Source: Acidobacteriota bacterium (lineage in GTDB: Bacteria; Acidobacteriota; Terriglobia; Bryobacterales; Bryobacteraceae). From it: 64,000 nucleotides of DNA. The stretch is taken from the NCBI GenBank assembly GCA_017307505.1, contig JAFKEE010000045.1, positions 1-64,000 of the forward strand. The letters run 5' to 3'. The notes beneath the pieces were generated by a model. The model had not been told where the DNA came from. It was given only the letters and a program-made list of their open reading frames with translations, and searched no databases. The translations under genes and the position numbers were made by a program. Positions 55,898 to 64,000 of this stretch are shown here, in pieces. Position 1 is the stretch's first letter. Every line of letters starts with the position of its first letter.

Positions 55898-56413
55898 GAT
55901 TCACCAGCCTCTCGCTTCGCCAGCCCCGGGCTAGAAACAGGCTGCCCTCTCGCTGGCTGCGTAAATCGTATCACTGCTCTCAGGTGGACACGGGCGCACA
56001 TCCAGTCCCGGAAATCGCTGCGGCCTTGACGCGCCCAGTCCCAGTCTCCACGCGCCCGCGCCGGGCTAAGCGCTACAAGCCCCAGTCCCCGAAGTCAGGT
56101 GGCCGGGGCGGGGCTGAGCCCGCGTAGTCGACCAGGGGGTCGACTGCGGACCAGGGGGTCCGCCGTCCCAACGGGGATGGCCATGCGGCTTTCATGGAGT
56201 TGCATGGCTTGTCGGGATGGGGACGCCTCCCTTACGGTTGGCGTTCGTTGCCCTGGTTTTGGGTGTGGAGGGGGAGGCAGGGACGGTTCGGTTGTGGTGG
56301 ACGTTGGCTGTGGATCTCTGCGTGGTCGGTGGTTCCGTGGCAACATAGAGAGACGAACTCGCCCGCGTCGGCGAAGCGATCCACAATCCAATTGCCTTCC
56401 TAGGGAGACCAGC
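55898..56413. other. Divergent intergenic region with hairpin repeats
   Basis: A 516-base gap between divergent genes. It contains the twin hairpins at 56126-56163 and GC-rich, repeat-like sequence on both sides. The frame of the downstream peptidase gene is open through part of it, but the translated sequence is Gly/Arg-rich and not protein-like. Confidence 0.5.
56126..56163. repeat. Two adjacent REP-like hairpins with shared core
   Basis: AGTCGACC-AGGG-GGTCGACT (56126-56145) is followed at once by GCGGACC-AGGG-GGTCCGC (56146-56163). The core GACCAGGGGGTC is identical, while the outer stem bases differ but still pair in each. Confidence 0.75.
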
Positions 56414-57676
56414 TTGCTAACCAGACGCGCGCTTATGGCTACCGCCGCCTCCGCGGCCGCCGCGCCACTCCTGTCCGCCCAGACGAAATCCCTGCCGCCT
56501 TCCCTCGCCGCGCTCAAGAGCCGGCGCGGGGAGATGAAGCCGATCACCAACGAGGAGCGCCAGGCCCGGTTGGATCGTGCCCAACGGCTGATGGCCGAGA
56601 AGAAAGTCGATGCCATCTGCATGGCGGGTGGCACTTCGCTGCAGTACTTCGCCAACGTGCGGTGGGGCAACAGCGAGCGGATGCTGCTGATGGTCCTGCC
56701 GGCCAAGGGTGAGCCGTTTTTCGTGGTCCCGAGTTTTGAAGAGGACCGTGCCCGGGAGCAGATCGCCCTGGGTCCGGCCGGGACGAAGGCGCAGGTGACG
56801 CGCTGGGAAGAGGACGAGAGTCCTTATGAGAAGGTGGCGCTCGGGTTGAAGGAGCGAGGGATCCGTACGGGCACGCTGGGCGTGGAGGAGACGACCAAGT
56901 TCGTCTTCAGCGAGGGTATCGGCAAGGCCGCGACGCAGGTGAAGATCGCGAACGCGACGGAGATCACAGCGGGCTGCCGGATGATCAAGAGCCCGGCGGA
57001 GCTGGCGCTGATGCGGCTGGCGAACAGCGTGACACTGGAGGCGTACGAGGCGGCCTGGAAGGCGATTACTCCGGGCATGACGCACAGGGCGTTTGGGGAA
57101 CTGATTACCGCGGCGCATGCGCAGTTGGGTTTCCAGGGCGGGGCGATGGTGCTGACGGCCGAGTATTCCGCGCTGCCGCACGGGACGATCCAGCCGCAGA
57201 TCATCCGTGAGGGGACCATCGTGCTGATCGACGGCGAGTGCCGGGCGGACGGGTACCCTTCCGACATTACGCGGACGTTCGTCATCGGTAAGGCTACGGA
57301 CAAGATGAAGAAGGTGTTCGAGATCGTGCGGAAGGCGCAGGATGCGGCGCTGAGGACGGCCCGGCCGGGCGTGCCTTGTGAAGCCGTGGATGCGGCCGCG
57401 CGGAAGGTGATTACGGACGCGGGCTTCGGGCCGGACTACAAGTACTTCACGCACCGCCTGGGGCATGGCATGGGCATGGACGGGCACGAGTGGCCTTATC
57501 TGGTACGCGGCAACAAGCTGCCACTGGTGAAGGACATGACGTTCAGCGACGAACCGGGCATTTATATCAAGGGTGAGTTCGGGGTGCGGCTGGAAGACGA
57601 CATGCATATCACGGAGAGTGGGGCGGAGCTGTTTACGCCGCAGAGTTCGTCGCTGGAGCAGCCATTCGCGGTGTAG
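56414..57676 (+). CDS. Tat-exported M24 peptidase (Xaa-Pro aminopeptidase/prolidase-like)
   Basis: A 420-residue metallopeptidase starting at TTG, with AGGGAGA 6 bases upstream and a Tat leader right after (TRRALMATAASAAAA). The N-terminal creatinase-like domain spans about 40-170. The pita-bread domain carries all five metal ligands: two Asp (LIDGECRADGYPSDITRTF), His (LGHGMGMDGHEW), Glu (FSDEPGIYI) and Glu (VRLEDDMH). Likely releases N-terminal residues ahead of proline, or cleaves related dipeptides, in the periplasm. Ends in a strong terminator. Upstream in-frame starts are rejected because they precede the leader and ribosome site. Confidence 0.9.
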   Translation: MLTRRALMATAASAAAAPLLSAQTKSLPPSLAALKSRRGEMKPITNEERQARLDRAQRLMAEKKVDAICMAGGTSLQYFANVRWGNSERMLLMVLPAKGEPFFVVPSFEEDRAREQIALGPAGTKAQVTRWEEDESPYEKVALGLKERGIRTGTLGVEETTKFVFSEGIGKAATQVKIANATEITAGCRMIKSPAELALMRLANSVTLEAYEAAWKAITPGMTHRAFGELITAAHAQLGFQGGAMVLTAEYSALPHGTIQPQIIREGTIVLIDGECRADGYPSDITRTFVIGKATDKMKKVFEIVRKAQDAALRTARPGVPCEAVDAAARKVITDAGFGPDYKYFTHRLGHGMGMDGHEWPYLVRGNKLPLVKDMTFSDEPGIYIKGEFGVRLEDDMHITESGAELFTPQSSSLEQPFAV

Positions 57677-58026
57677 ACGGGGGGCTCGGGTTCGTTTCGT
57701 TAAGGTTCCAGGCCAGGTTCGTTGAGGCGGGTGCGGTTCTATGGGAAGGATCGCACCCGCTTTTTGCGTTCGGGCCCGGAGTGGCTTCGTTTCGGTCATT
57801 CCCGGGAGCGACGGGTCGCGAGGGCCGGGCAGGCCATGGCGGCTGGGCCAGCGTGGAGCGGGTGTGGGGCGCGGACACCGCGGGCTCGGACGGATGCGCC
57901 CCTGAGAAGGGCAGAGATGTAGATGTCAAAGAACTGGGCCGGTGGGGCTCCGGCTGGGTGTGATGGGCGGCGGATCTCAGTGGCTTCGTTTCGTCAATTC
58001 CCGGAGGCTTCGCCTGGGCGCCGTGC
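57677..58026. other. Intergenic region with terminator and repeated segment
   Basis: This 350-base gap holds the peptidase terminator and two near-identical 25-base segments beginning GTGGCTTCGTTTCG at 57781 and 57980, differing by one indel and one base. Their role is unknown. No coding sequence is supported. Confidence 0.5.
57727..57765 (+). terminator. Rho-independent terminator of the M24 peptidase gene
   Basis: GCGGGTGCG (57727-57735) pairs with CGCACCCGC (57752-57760), followed by five Ts. It starts 51 bases past the stop codon. Confidence 0.85.
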
Positions 58027-58734
58027 TCAGAGCCGAGTGACGTCGTAGTTCAGGTTGGGGAGACCGTCTGGCCCGACCAGACCGGCTTCATTGCGTGGAA
58101 CTCGGATCGGTTGGAGGCCGGCGAGCGGGTCGTCGTTGTCGGGGTGGTCGGAATCGATGCCGCTGGCGAGGTGTTCGAGGGCTCTGCGAGGGCGGCCGTA
58201 GCCTTCGTAGAAGAAGAGTTCGTCGGTATTGCCGGTCAGGCGGGTGACCTCGGCCAGTGGGACGTTTTCGCGGATGCCCTGCACCACGTGGGGATGCTGC
58301 TGGCCGAGGGCGGCGCGTTCGGTTTGCAGTTTGCTGAGTTCCCTGACGGCTCGATAGAGGCTGCGTTCGAGGTCGCGGCGATAGCGGGCGTAGCGGTCGA
58401 GTTTGGCGGCGTGGGGGTCGGCTTCGGCCAATGGGTCCGTTTCGGCGAGAAGGAGGGCTTCGAAGGACTCAATGCGGCGAAGGTTCCAGGTGTGAGAGAG
58501 GATACGGTGGAAGATCTCCTCTTCGAGGCAGCCGAAGGGCCGGGTATCGAGGCGTAGGGCGGCCTGGAGGGTATCAAATTCGGCGCGGTCTTCGGGCGTG
58601 ATCTCGAGGTTGCGGGCGGTGAAGCCGTGGCGGCGGGCGTTTTGGGAAGCACGGGCCTTGCCGACGGGGGACACCGGTCCCGTGGAGTGTTTCGCGTTCG
58701 CCTGGTTGGCGGTGATTTGAGCAACGGACGCCAT
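58027..58734 (-). CDS. Protein of unassigned family (NAKHSTGP-type N-terminus)
   Basis: A 235-residue protein. The N-terminus (ITANQANAKHSTGPVSP, GKARASQNARRHGFTA) follows a pattern I associate with an unassigned bacterial family, often with a basic, possibly nucleic-acid-binding start. The middle (EEEIFHRILSHTWNLRRIESFEALL, then RYARYRRDLERSLYRAVREL) is strongly helical, with a coiled-coil-like Arg/Glu pattern. The C-terminus is acidic and disordered. No signal peptide or membrane segment. Function unknown. Confidence 0.7.
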   Translation of the reverse strand: MASVAQITANQANAKHSTGPVSPVGKARASQNARRHGFTARNLEITPEDRAEFDTLQAALRLDTRPFGCLEEEIFHRILSHTWNLRRIESFEALLLAETDPLAEADPHAAKLDRYARYRRDLERSLYRAVRELSKLQTERAALGQQHPHVVQGIRENVPLAEVTRLTGNTDELFFYEGYGRPRRALEHLASGIDSDHPDNDDPLAGLQPIRVPRNEAGLVGPDGLPNLNYDVTRL

Positions 58735-59350
58735 AATAAGAATCTCCTTGGCAATAAAAATGGCCGGCTTGGTGGCCGGCGCGATTCCAGGGTAAGAGGG
58801 GTGTCAAGGGGTAAAGGGTAGTTTTGGAGAAGGGCGTGTTGAAAATAAAGGATAAAAATATTCTAAACCCCTGTGAATGAAGATGGCTTCATGCGGGAAA
58901 TGGGGGAGAAATGGGGGTGGGACGCGAAGGGACGGCGTTGCTGGGAGCGGCTTCGAGGGTGGCGGTGGGGGTTCCAGGCGGTTGTGAGGGGGGTAAGCAG
59001 GATCGGCGCGCTGTCGAAGAGTGGTTGGCATTGCGGCGAGCGAGCATGGTCGAGTCGCACCCGTCCCAGTCCTGTTTGTGGGATAGGGCCCAGAGTTGGA
59101 ACTACTGGGTGGGCTGGGGCCACCGTCCCGGGTTCGGCGTCGGGCGGGAAGGCCGAGCGTCCCAGGGGAAGCGGCGCCCTTCAGTGAGTTCCCGGGTGAT
59201 ATGCCCCTAGTGGAGACTTGGTTTTGGTGATTCGCGGCGGGACGCGTCAGGCTGTCGATTCTCCGATTTTCACCGATGCTCTTCTGCATCCATCACGCGG
59301 TTTCCTTCTGGCCTAAGATAATTCCAGGCACCGCGGATGTCCCACAGATT
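58735..59350. other. Intergenic region left of the low-GC module
   Basis: A 616-base gap. The Pro-rich 161-codon minus-strand ORF in it looks compositional. An AT-rich stretch at about 58835-58880 interrupts GC-rich sequence and could be the promoter of the gene at 58734. GC content starts to fall from here to the right. No repeat or tRNA-like attachment site was found. Confidence 0.45.
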
Positions 59351-62300
59351 CTACAACGTGAAGCTTTCTTCCGTGGTTGGACCGTCTACGCCGATGGAGG
59401 AAAAACGATAGAACGCCGCACGATTGCCCAAGTGCCGGAACTTCTGCCGTGCGAGTTGCAGAAATTTTTCGTCGCAAGTCGAAATGACAAACTGGCGTTT
59501 CCACGGACTAGGCACAAGAAGGCCGACAACGAGATCGAGGAAGGCGTAGGTATTCAAATCGTCAAAATGCGTTACAGGGTCATCCAGGAACACTGGGGAG
59601 AATGCCGACCACGTCTGAGAAATGCATGCCGTCAAGAACAGCCCAAGAAATAGCGTTTGCTGCTGGGACTGACTGAAGTAATCGGTAGGTCGCAACTCCT
59701 CGCCATGACGTCTGACGCGGACCCTGATCTCGGAGTTTTGACTGCGGATATCCACCTCATCGAAGCCATACACAGACCGGAGCCTACGCTGGATCACCGA
59801 GGTGCGAGGCCCATATTCACGAGTGAAACTCGCTATGGCTTCGCCCTGCTTTGTCGATACCAGTCGAGAGATCTCGATGAAGTAATTGAACCACAACTGA
59901 AGCCTGTCTTTCCTCGCTGATACTGCCGACAGGCTCCTTTCCTTCTCTCGAGCGTTATTACGAAGCTGCGCAAGAACCGCCGAAGTCGTTGCGGAATCGA
60001 GCGCCAATTCCAAGTTCGATGTTGAGTCCCGAAGGGCGGCCAGGCGTGCCTGAAGTTGCGACTCTTCTGCAATCCTTATGCGAAGAAGTTCCTGGCCCGC
60101 GTCTGGAGGAAGTGTTTCTTGGTTGAGACGCGCCGTCACATCCGCATCTACCTTCTGCAGACCGGTAAGTTGAACACGCAGTTCGGAACGCTGCGCTTTT
60201 AGCGCCGTCGATTCCTGGTTAATTGCCGCCACCTCCGATTTCTTTTTGACAATCTCGGCCTGCATAGTCTCAGCGTTGGATCGTAGCTCGGACAACTGCC
60301 CATCCGCCACAGCTTCAAGTTCCGTGAGGTGTTGGTCTTCGCTGTCAAGAGGAACCTGGATAGCACGAGGATCACTCCGCAGTTCGGCAATCTCTGATCC
60401 GATGCGGTTTAGCCTCGCAGTCTGTTCCCTGCTTTCGGCCGTACTTGCAGCGAGGCCAGCTCGCACATTGCGCAGCTTCAACCTCAAGGCATCGGCAGAA
60501 ATAGTTGCTTCTTTGATCTGACGTTCTAAATCGCCTATTTCCACCTGAATCCGATTGCTCAGCGTTTGCAGTTGTTTGGTCGGCGCTTCGCTATTCGCAT
60601 CGAGAACTATACCTAGCTTCCCGCCAGATTCCTTGAACTGGCCAATGTCCCATTCAAGTTGGCGATGCTCCGTTTGAAGATCACCGATCAGCCCCTCAAC
60701 AATCCGATATCGCTCAGTGTTCTGGGTAATCTCTTGAGACACGCCTCGGATCCTATCTCGCACCTCAGTGAGGCTTGCCCGAATGCCGCTTGCTACATCA
60801 AGGGAAAGATGGTGTTCAATGCGTTTGAGTAGCTCATCACGTGAACCGTGGTACTGTCCGCACAAAGGGCACGTACCAGTTTGAACGAGCCCTGCTAGTT
60901 GAGACGCAAGCCTCTTAAGTTCGGACTGGCTCTTATCCACCTCCGCAATACTTCGCGCTATCCGGGCTTCTTCCGCCGTGAATGAAGCAACCCGTGATGC
61001 CAGTCCTTGGGCTTCCGTGCCAAGGGCCTCAAATGATTTGGCTGCCTCTCCCTCTAATTGAATCACGACCTTAAGCCGTGCTAGTTTTGCGCGCCACCCT
61101 GCAATCGACTCACTAACACGGCCCGCCAAGGCGAGTTGCTCGCGCGCAATCTGGAGCTCCTTAGACCGCTGGGGAGTAACCTCGTCGAGCCTAAGTAGTT
61201 CGCCCGCTATGCTTTCCTCAGTAATCCGATCCTGGATCATCTTGCTGGTCGCGCGGGCTAGCATGTCGTTGGCCTCGCGTTCACCCTGGATCAATTGGTT
61301 GTATTGCGGCCTCTTCAGGCGAATCCACTTAAGTAGATCGATTTGCGTTTGCCCCGCAGCGACCGCACGGCGTAATTCAAGAGCCCGTTGCTCCGCTCGC
61401 TTGAGGAGAGAATCAGCGGTTACATGCCTTGCCTCGGCTTCACCTAATAACTGATCCTTTTCCGCAATCAGTCGCTGCAATCTACTTACCTCGAAGCGTG
61501 TCCGGGTGATATCGCCGATTTCCTCAGCCAGCGCTGAAAGCCGATCGCTCCTTGAGTGACTTTCGGCGAGTCGGCCCTCAAGCGAAGCTCGCCAGCCCCG
61601 CAGCACTGAAACGTCAACCTTCTCTGGTCCGATTGAGAGCCCCACATCACCGAGTTTTTTTGCTAGCGCCAGAAGCTCACCTTCGAGACTCTCACTAGGA
61701 GTACTCTTCACCGTCGTGCTGCTCAAGCGGTTCAGCTCACTCGTTGCCTCCGTAATCTGCCGGGATAGTTGCATGATCTGGGCATCAGCGGAGGCGATGA
61801 CGTTCTTGAGATGTTCTTGGACCCTGCTGGACTTGCTTACTGCACTGGCGTAGTCTTCAAACGCCAACATGCGCGCCACGATCTCAGAGGGCAGTCGGCA
61901 ATCGTCCTGGAAGTCTTTTGTAAGTTCTGGCAGTTCCTGATTGAAAAGATGCGTAGCCCTAAAGAGACTGACAAAGTTCTCAACACGGTCAGTTGGCGGG
62001 AATTCTCCGCTCGTAAGTTCACTGAGCAGGGACTTTCGATCTATGCGCGTGCCATCAAGCGAAGCATGCCTGCGGTCATACACGCTTCGTGTGAGCCTAT
62101 GGACTTTATTCTTGGCCTTAAACGAGAGAGATACGGAACTGTCTTCCGGCCTACTATCCAGATGAGTTGCATACTTCTTAAAATGCTCCTCGCCGCGAGA
62201 TGGGATGCGGCCAATTTCGCCCGTCGTCGCAAAATCAAACGCATCGAAAAACGACGTCTTCCCAAAACCGTTTGCGCCATAAAGAACGGTTACGTCCGAG

Positions 62301-62995
62301 CCCAGTGTAAACGTCTTTGATCGGCGATAGGCGCGAAAATTTTCGATGGTCACGGACTCCAGCGTGATAGGCTCAGCCACTTGGTCCGGGTGAGCAATCA
62401 AGGCGTGATGAGTCGGTGTCAACTCGATAGGATCGCCGAAATCCCCTTTGATGCAGTCCTCGACTATGGCTTCCGGACCCCGCGCTCGCTGCACAACCAG
62501 GAACTTCGCCAAGTCGGCCGGGACGCCACATTGACGCAGGAATGTTTGTGCCGACGGTGGCCGCAAAGACTGACCGGTGAGCGGCGTGAGCGGCAAGAAA
62601 GGCAGACGGGCGAGGGACATTCCAACCAGACCCGACAACGGAATTACAAATTTGCGACAGAAGTAGACATCAGTTTCAATACTGGAGCAAAATTGATCGA
62701 GATGCGGAAGATCTGGATTTACACAGAAGACGAACGCGAGGTCAAGGCTGTCCCACTGTTCTCGTTGCGCTGCGTAGTATTTCTTAAAACCCGCGTAGAT
62801 ACTCTCATAGCTTTTTCGCGCGTCACCGTTAGCAAATCCAAAAGCGGCAAGAGAGTGATCTGTCCTGAGTAAGAGGAGTGGGTTGTATGATGGAGCAACA
62901 GTCACTTCCGAAAGCCGAGAATCTGGAAGCTCGCGCTGCAGATATGCACGAAGTTCACTGGTCGAAGGAAGGGGGCTATGCGGCAAATTCGGCAT
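59351..62995 (-). CDS. Rad50/SMC-like zinc-hook ATPase with extra N-terminal domain
   Basis: A 1,214-residue ATPase. Residues 1-205 are a separate alpha/beta domain with SLDLAFVFCVNPDLPHL and ETDVYFCRKFVI, not recognised. Walker A is YGANGFGKTS at about 239-248. Long coiled coils follow, with a single zinc-hook motif CPLCG near residue 708 in the middle. The C-terminal ATPase half has a signature-like FSQSQQQ near 1,100 and Walker B VFLDDPVTHFDD near 1,133. The protein resembles RloC/SbcC-type conflict ATPases but has no anticodon-nuclease domain. The ATG at 62995 has GGGGGC upstream and overlaps the preceding gene by 20 bases. GC is about ten points below the neighbours. Confidence 0.88.
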   Translation of the reverse strand: MPNLPHSPLPSTSELRAYLQRELPDSRLSEVTVAPSYNPLLLLRTDHSLAAFGFANGDARKSYESIYAGFKKYYAAQREQWDSLDLAFVFCVNPDLPHLDQFCSSIETDVYFCRKFVIPLSGLVGMSLARLPFLPLTPLTGQSLRPPSAQTFLRQCGVPADLAKFLVVQRARGPEAIVEDCIKGDFGDPIELTPTHHALIAHPDQVAEPITLESVTIENFRAYRRSKTFTLGSDVTVLYGANGFGKTSFFDAFDFATTGEIGRIPSRGEEHFKKYATHLDSRPEDSSVSLSFKAKNKVHRLTRSVYDRRHASLDGTRIDRKSLLSELTSGEFPPTDRVENFVSLFRATHLFNQELPELTKDFQDDCRLPSEIVARMLAFEDYASAVSKSSRVQEHLKNVIASADAQIMQLSRQITEATSELNRLSSTTVKSTPSESLEGELLALAKKLGDVGLSIGPEKVDVSVLRGWRASLEGRLAESHSRSDRLSALAEEIGDITRTRFEVSRLQRLIAEKDQLLGEAEARHVTADSLLKRAEQRALELRRAVAAGQTQIDLLKWIRLKRPQYNQLIQGEREANDMLARATSKMIQDRITEESIAGELLRLDEVTPQRSKELQIAREQLALAGRVSESIAGWRAKLARLKVVIQLEGEAAKSFEALGTEAQGLASRVASFTAEEARIARSIAEVDKSQSELKRLASQLAGLVQTGTCPLCGQYHGSRDELLKRIEHHLSLDVASGIRASLTEVRDRIRGVSQEITQNTERYRIVEGLIGDLQTEHRQLEWDIGQFKESGGKLGIVLDANSEAPTKQLQTLSNRIQVEIGDLERQIKEATISADALRLKLRNVRAGLAASTAESREQTARLNRIGSEIAELRSDPRAIQVPLDSEDQHLTELEAVADGQLSELRSNAETMQAEIVKKKSEVAAINQESTALKAQRSELRVQLTGLQKVDADVTARLNQETLPPDAGQELLRIRIAEESQLQARLAALRDSTSNLELALDSATTSAVLAQLRNNAREKERSLSAVSARKDRLQLWFNYFIEISRLVSTKQGEAIASFTREYGPRTSVIQRRLRSVYGFDEVDIRSQNSEIRVRVRRHGEELRPTDYFSQSQQQTLFLGLFLTACISQTWSAFSPVFLDDPVTHFDDLNTYAFLDLVVGLLVPSPWKRQFVISTCDEKFLQLARQKFRHLGNRAAFYRFSSIGVDGPTTEESFTL

Positions 62996-64000
62996 CGATT
63001 GCCCCCTGTACATCGTTCACGGTAGCTGACTCCTGAAAGATATCAAGGAGCCTGCGGAATCCCAAATGCAACAAACCGCTACTGGGGTCAGTAAACTTCT
63101 GCTCTTGATTCAAGGGAAGATTGCCTCGTTCCAAGAAGCTCCCGAATTTTCGTGCCCATGGGTTATTATGCCCATCGCGCGAGATTAGCAGGGACTTGCG
63201 TCGTGGATGTGGCAAGAACATCTTGGAATGTTCAATGCAAGCCTCATGGGACGTGCCTCGGATGGCCATAAGGTCCACCGTCTGGCCACCCACGATGATC
63301 GTGGCGTGAGCCGGATCAGTGCCGAGGCAGGGAGGAATGGAGCCCAGGCTCATGATGTCCAGAGTATCCACTAGATGCTCTATAGCTTCAGCCTCAGGTC
63401 GATCCCATTCGTCAGCCTTTGTCGCAGCTTTGGACTCCTGAGCCGCAAGTACGACCCCGTGGGTAATGGATTGGGCCCTAACCACTCTCAGCGCGCAAAC
63501 GGTCTGTCGATGTGTCTCTCCGAGGGCTGCGGCAAGTGGAACTGCCGGATATTTGGCGTCTAATGCTTGCAGGCTGTCCAGTTCATCATTTAGCCATTTG
63601 ACGCAAGCAGGAACAGCTCTTGCCGGTGTCCTCGGATCGGTCTCACTCGCGAGTGCGTGGACGCGAGCATTCTCAACAGCGAGGGTGCGACCAGCAGGTC
63701 CCGCAGTCAGTGAAGCCGGATTGATTTGAATAAAAGAGTGAATGCACGCGCCCCGCTCACGAAAGTAGATGTCTTTGTATGGAGTTAGAACTTCGCTGCC
63801 ATCTCGGAATCGCCTGCCCCCGTTTGAAAAGGTCGGCGCGCAGTCTGCGGCCTTAAAGCCCGCCTGATGTGAGAACACCACGCTGCATCCCCCGTATAAC
63901 GCAGAACGACCCGGCGCGGGAATTCCCGCACTGTTTGCGAAGACAATACAGGCATTATTTCTGAGCGCGTTCGGGAATTGCGTCTGATCAAAGAAGGCTT
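62976..64000 (-). CDS. Nitrilase-like protein, 5' partial, coupled to the SMC-like ATPase
   Basis: The frame is open to the window edge, so the start lies beyond 64,000; 340 residues are visible and a GTG at 63881 is only an internal codon. The first 100 visible residues (NNACIVFANSAG, LYGGCSVVFSHQAGF, YFRERGACIHSF) resemble the C-terminal half of a carbon-nitrogen hydrolase (nitrilase) fold; the catalytic Cys would be outside the window. The last 230 residues are a helical plus beta region (PACVKWLNDELDSLQ, VGGQTVDLMAIRG) that I do not recognise. It overlaps the ATPase gene by 20 bases, so the two proteins probably act together. The fold call is tentative. Confidence 0.6.
   Translation of the reverse strand, partial: AFFDQTQFPNALRNNACIVFANSAGIPAPGRSALYGGCSVVFSHQAGFKAADCAPTFSNGGRRFRDGSEVLTPYKDIYFRERGACIHSFIQINPASLTAGPAGRTLAVENARVHALASETDPRTPARAVPACVKWLNDELDSLQALDAKYPAVPLAAALGETHRQTVCALRVVRAQSITHGVVLAAQESKAATKADEWDRPEAEAIEHLVDTLDIMSLGSIPPCLGTDPAHATIIVGGQTVDLMAIRGTSHEACIEHSKMFLPHPRRKSLLISRDGHNNPWARKFGSFLERGNLPLNQEQKFTDPSSGLLHLGFRRLLDIFQESATVNDVQGAIDAEFAA

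Follow-up and report, generated by a model that had tools for sequence, protein, structure and literature searches.

We examined the first 64,000 nucleotides (forward strand, hereafter the window) of contig JAFKEE010000045.1 from the Acidobacteriota bacterium assembly GCA_017307505.1. At the end of the window lie two minus-strand genes, lmuA and lmuB, that almost certainly constitute a two-gene defence system, namely Lamassu of the amidase (C-N hydrolase) type (Table 1). The open reading frame (ORF) of lmuB, at 59351-63013, encodes 1220 residues from the earliest ATG and 1214 residues from the second ATG (62995). The second start gives a 20-base overlap with lmuA, whose stop codon ends at 62976. 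lmuA is cut by the end of the window, and the contig (111,034 bases) goes on past 64000. Extending the sequence completed the gene, which encodes 608 residues with an assumed GTG start at ~64802; the open frame reaches 64928 (650 residues). The guanine-plus-cytosine (GC) contents of lmuB and lmuA are 0.538 and 0.535, compared with 0.627 in window positions 1-58000 and 0.654 in the far flank, and the lowest value among 109 segments of the same length (3663 bases) within 1-58000 is 0.595. Because the genes upstream of lmuA, a PadR-like regulator by our reading and then a permease-type gene, lie on the other strand in high-GC sequence, we delimited the module to two genes. The strand, overlap and low GC content reported in a preliminary description of the window were all recovered, as was its 1,214-residue ATPase with a Walker A motif, one hook and a Walker B motif (FLDDP).

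Table 1. Features of the Lamassu module, in window coordinates
Feature	Position	Strand	Description and basis
lmuA	62976..64000 (gene to ~64802 on the contig)	-	Nitrilase-fold (C-N hydrolase) effector; contig extension, PADLOC, AlphaFold model and PDB comparison
lmuB	59351..62995	-	SMC/Rad50-like ATPase; PADLOC LmuB PDLC03861, Pfam AAA_23
LmuB N-terminal extension, ~204 residues	62384..62995	-	Probable fused middle-component (MComp1) domain resembling LmuC; Pfam matches
Segment aligned to positions 25-75 of the MComp1 profile, carrying the IETDVYFCRKFVI motif	62639..62785	-	Profile alignment
Walker A, GANGFGKT	62255..62278	-	G240, G243, G245, K246 and T247 invariant in 22/22 LmuB
Zinc-hook-like CPLCG	60857..60871	-	C709, C712 and G713 invariant in 22/22 LmuB
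ABC signature-like FSQSQQQ	59657..59677	-	F1107, S1108, S1110, Q1111 and Q1113 invariant in 22/22 LmuB
Walker B, FLDDPVTHFDD	59558..59590	-	Asp at the usual catalytic-Glu position; Asp-Asp in 22/22 LmuB

The assignment rests on both proteins. LmuA matches the PADLOC LmuA model PDLC03850 over nearly its whole length (E = 3.7e-207, 687.5 bits), and this was its sole PADLOC match at E ≤ 1; no Pfam family matched it at that threshold. LmuB matches the PADLOC model PDLC03861 over residues 18-1216 of 1220 (E = 0, 1109.9 bits) and Pfam AAA_23 (5.3e-19). A 2023 review describes Lamassu as LmuA and LmuB plus LmuC, the last lacking in some systems, lists C-N hydrolases among the effector domains and holds that Lamassu is thought to work by abortive infection (PMC10586767). 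The module thus adds a host to a kind of system already catalogued. The preliminary description had correctly seen a nitrilase-like protein and an SMC/Rad50-like ATPase, conserved as a pair and of a defence type. Its further statement that no described system has exactly this pairing does not stand, since Lamassu models match both proteins and the completed first gene encodes a component of a named system; the question of a new pairing is therefore closed. We take PDLC03850 plus PDLC03861 to be the type that DefenseFinder names 'Lamassu-Amidase'.

Scans with single proteins found no relatives. The relatives described here come from a search of 84,980 genomes with a motif pattern for the Walker B of LmuB, which gave 29 loci. 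By tblastn, LmuB was encoded at 27 of these; the two others (L018 and L040) were taken as chance and dropped before counting. LmuA was found in 23 of the 29 genomes, in one case as a remnant. We also dropped loci truncated at a contig end or close to one (L017, L019), broken up near one (L023), reduced to remnants (L026, genome G506) or holding a broken copy (L036). L088 (genome G576), with lmuA and lmuB both broken, was excluded from the alignments, and L080, with a truncated LmuB (471 residues), from the LmuB alignment. Hosts of the motif loci include Burkholderiales, Bradyrhizobium, Marinobacterium, Lentisphaerae, Omnitrophica, Desantisbacteria and a Thermoanaerobaculia metagenome-assembled genome.

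This survey of ATPase homologues, which the preliminary description had proposed, revealed a conserved pairing. In all 22 genomes with an intact LmuA, the LmuB frame lies directly downstream on the same strand, and it is full length in 21. The genes overlap by 14-23 bases in 17 of the 22; the other five have overlaps of 26, 4, 41 and 128 bases and one gap of 2, and an early start codon may account for the two largest overlaps. Identity matrices of LmuA and LmuB across the 22 pairs correlate at r = 0.98, a value reached in none of 2000 permutations, although host relatedness alone could explain much of it. A search with LmuA only recovered a single genome, the window's own, among the 396 sampled from its phylum, and two among the 399 sampled from the order of a Comamonas genome (G509), namely the seed and the broken copy in G576. 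In each of these three, LmuB or fragments of it lie next to LmuA. LmuB had no match in any of eight congeners. From these counts we conclude that the system occurs rarely and sporadically. Copies of this Lamassu type that are broken or reduced to remnants (L088, L080, L026 and L036) would fit a costly accessory system; genes resembling what we take to be an IS66 element lie upstream of the copy at L036.

LmuA is, by its predicted fold, a nitrilase-superfamily hydrolase: its AlphaFold model showed a nitrilase fold on comparison with PDB structures. The fold models were built from 11 LmuA (A1) and 16 LmuB N-termini (A2), taken from the window contig and from those motif loci where they could be read, a subset of the 23 LmuA and 22 LmuB aligned. 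E87, K174, E181 and C215 are identical in all 23 LmuA. Judged by motif position and general knowledge of the superfamily rather than by superposed coordinates, E87, K174 and C215 appear to form an intact Glu-Lys-Cys nitrilase centre. These three residues are encoded beyond 64000. Only residues 269-608 of the 608 lie in the window, and hence the preliminary description rightly recognized just the late half of a nitrilase fold. The N-terminal enzymatic domain and the position directly upstream of lmuB are as for Lamassu LmuA effectors. The invariant active-site residues turn the LmuA substrate into a concrete biochemical question, namely what a defence nitrilase cleaves.

LmuB carries the motifs of an SMC-like ATPase that characterize Lamassu LmuB, namely Walker A, Walker B and the zinc hook that is often present there (Table 1). 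The conservation of Walker B in 21 of the 22 LmuB is by selection of the sample, because this motif was the bait that retrieved them. The Asp in Walker B differs from the Glu-to-Gln change given for LmuB generally, and the length of ~1210 residues from the ~650 given, in PMC10586767. Four three-gene loci that we examined encode LmuB of 773, 803, 1010 and 1046 residues. RloC has an anticodon-nuclease domain next to its ATPase; Pfam returned only ATPase, MComp1 and weak coiled-coil-type matches for LmuB, in a search not aimed at that domain.

An MComp1-like domain occupies the LmuB N-terminus. In all 16 homologues scanned, this region matched Pfam MComp1 at E ≤ 0.1 (best 5.3e-7), with scores above the Pfam cut-off in the LmuB of G509 and G576. 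The two-gene module has no separate lmuC, and stand-alone MComp1 genes elsewhere are the middle genes of Lamassu-like operons. Four such three-gene operons were observed (L124-L127). PADLOC names LmuC in one of three of their middle genes submitted, and its LmuC models may therefore miss part of MComp1. We conclude that the middle component is probably fused to the LmuB N-terminus, and that this fusion is probably a feature under-described so far. The literature searched, which covered few subscription journals so that the fusion may be in print elsewhere, gave no title on amidase-type Lamassu or on an LmuC-LmuB fusion; 'Lamassu-Hydrolase' is named once in PMC12447246. If the fusion is true, it provides a natural single-chain LmuC-LmuB that would place LmuC near the ATPase head and simplify structural work. 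An unlikely alternative is that the extension is not LmuC but a degenerate PD-(D/E)XK-like domain in its own right, with DNA or LmuA as its binding partner. The uniform MComp1 matches argue against it, as do an hhalign alignment in which an IExDxxxxRK-type motif of the extension recurs in stand-alone MComp1 proteins (93.3%, over 21 columns only) and a Foldseek search with a model of the extension that gave no match at E ≤ 0.001. The two proposals are compatible if MComp1 itself has a PD-(D/E)XK-like fold.

In comparison with catalogued amidase Lamassu (PDLC03850 plus PDLC03861), the window's system has both proteins matching near full length and the same overlapping lmuA-lmuB order; nothing essential differs beyond the further host and our reading of a fused domain, resembling LmuC, at the LmuB N-terminus. 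Three-gene Lamassu (LmuA-LmuC-LmuB; ABC-3C; DdmABC) shares the order of effector, middle-component domain and SMC-like ATPase, as well as the CPxC hook, whereas its middle component is a separate protein and the effector here is nitrilase-fold. Defence reverse transcriptase (DRT) type 1, a reverse transcriptase with a nitrilase domain, also places a nitrilase fold in a defence context; here the partner is instead an SMC-like ATPase. The comparison with DRT made in the preliminary description breaks down. Reverse transcriptase families did not match LmuA in Pfam, PADLOC or NCBIfam, or LmuB among the best 25 of its 72 PADLOC matches.

Taken as a whole, the explanation that we favour, and consider likely, is a two-gene amidase Lamassu with an LmuC-like LmuB N-terminus, in which sensing by LmuB activates LmuA and leads to cell arrest or death. 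LmuB dimers would bind ATP as well as an aberrant structure in the invader's DNA, and this binding would free or assemble LmuA. Once active, LmuA would hydrolyse an amide-type bond in a metabolite or protein of the cell, and the infected cell would stop growing or die. For this sequence of sensing, activation and killing we put the chances at about even. A more specific version is possible but doubtful: amidase Lamassu may have kept LmuC as a catalytically dead PD-(D/E)XK-like domain at the LmuB N-terminus, a fusion that fixes the place of LmuC in the sensor, with an assembly-activated nitrilase effector killing through an essential amide metabolite. Distinctly improbable, in our view, is a Lamassu-like system in which LmuA targets the invader itself, for instance through deamidation of one of the phage's proteins, instead of working through abortive infection. 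Nitrilase-fold enzymes are mostly metabolic and ordinary genes flank the module, yet a chance neighbourhood of a metabolic amidase and an unrelated DNA-repair ATPase, both housekeeping, is very hard to credit and is largely refuted by a distribution too sporadic for housekeeping genes and by the conserved pairing, along with the low GC content.

Several points weigh against the Lamassu interpretation or parts of it. The literature searched yielded no experiments on amidase-type Lamassu. Because LmuB was the route to the relatives, any LmuA lacking LmuB would be visible only in the phylum- and order-sample searches. The C-terminal region of LmuA (~200 residues, beyond ~residue 400) is poorly predicted in the AlphaFold model. 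MComp1 scores 20.7-24.4 bits in the window's LmuB, under the Pfam curated cut-off of 27.3, and PADLOC LmuC models did not match its N-terminus. Finally, the window locus is itself outside any defence island: among eight neighbours scanned, six had no match, one had a set of Ser/Thr-kinase-type matches and one had a match at E = 0.00097.

We also assessed the neighbourhoods of the 22 relatives, which include type III restriction-modification, Wadjet III (JetC/JetD), type II methyltransferase, conjugation and transposase-type genes. Flanking ORFs were picked mechanically (up to three nearest per side, ≥120 residues), and 115 of 181 were scanned. They matched 133 PADLOC families (E ≤ 1e-15) compared with 38 for 115 control ORFs, which were taken from the same contigs at 15 distant stretches. 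This excess is suggestive only, because the counts are of families rather than genes (the first 25 families were listed), a single gene may account for many families and the controls come from 15 of the 22 genomes.

Two further observations concern the surroundings of the window's module. Just past its 3' end, an ORF at 58027-58734 (minus strand, 235 residues; stretch 57976-58919) belongs to a multicopy DNA family and is possibly a mobile or repeat-borne gene. The 2.3-kb stretch that holds it has 18 matches in its own genome (itself included) and 42 in the congener G401, many at 74-85% identity over their part of the query. Peptidase-type stretches at window 56333-57681 and contig 68587-69427 adjoin head to head in the congeners G400 and G401. 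Here ~11 kb separates them, and the Lamassu pair lies in between together with a unit that we take to be of PadR-ADOP type; the site has therefore been rearranged.
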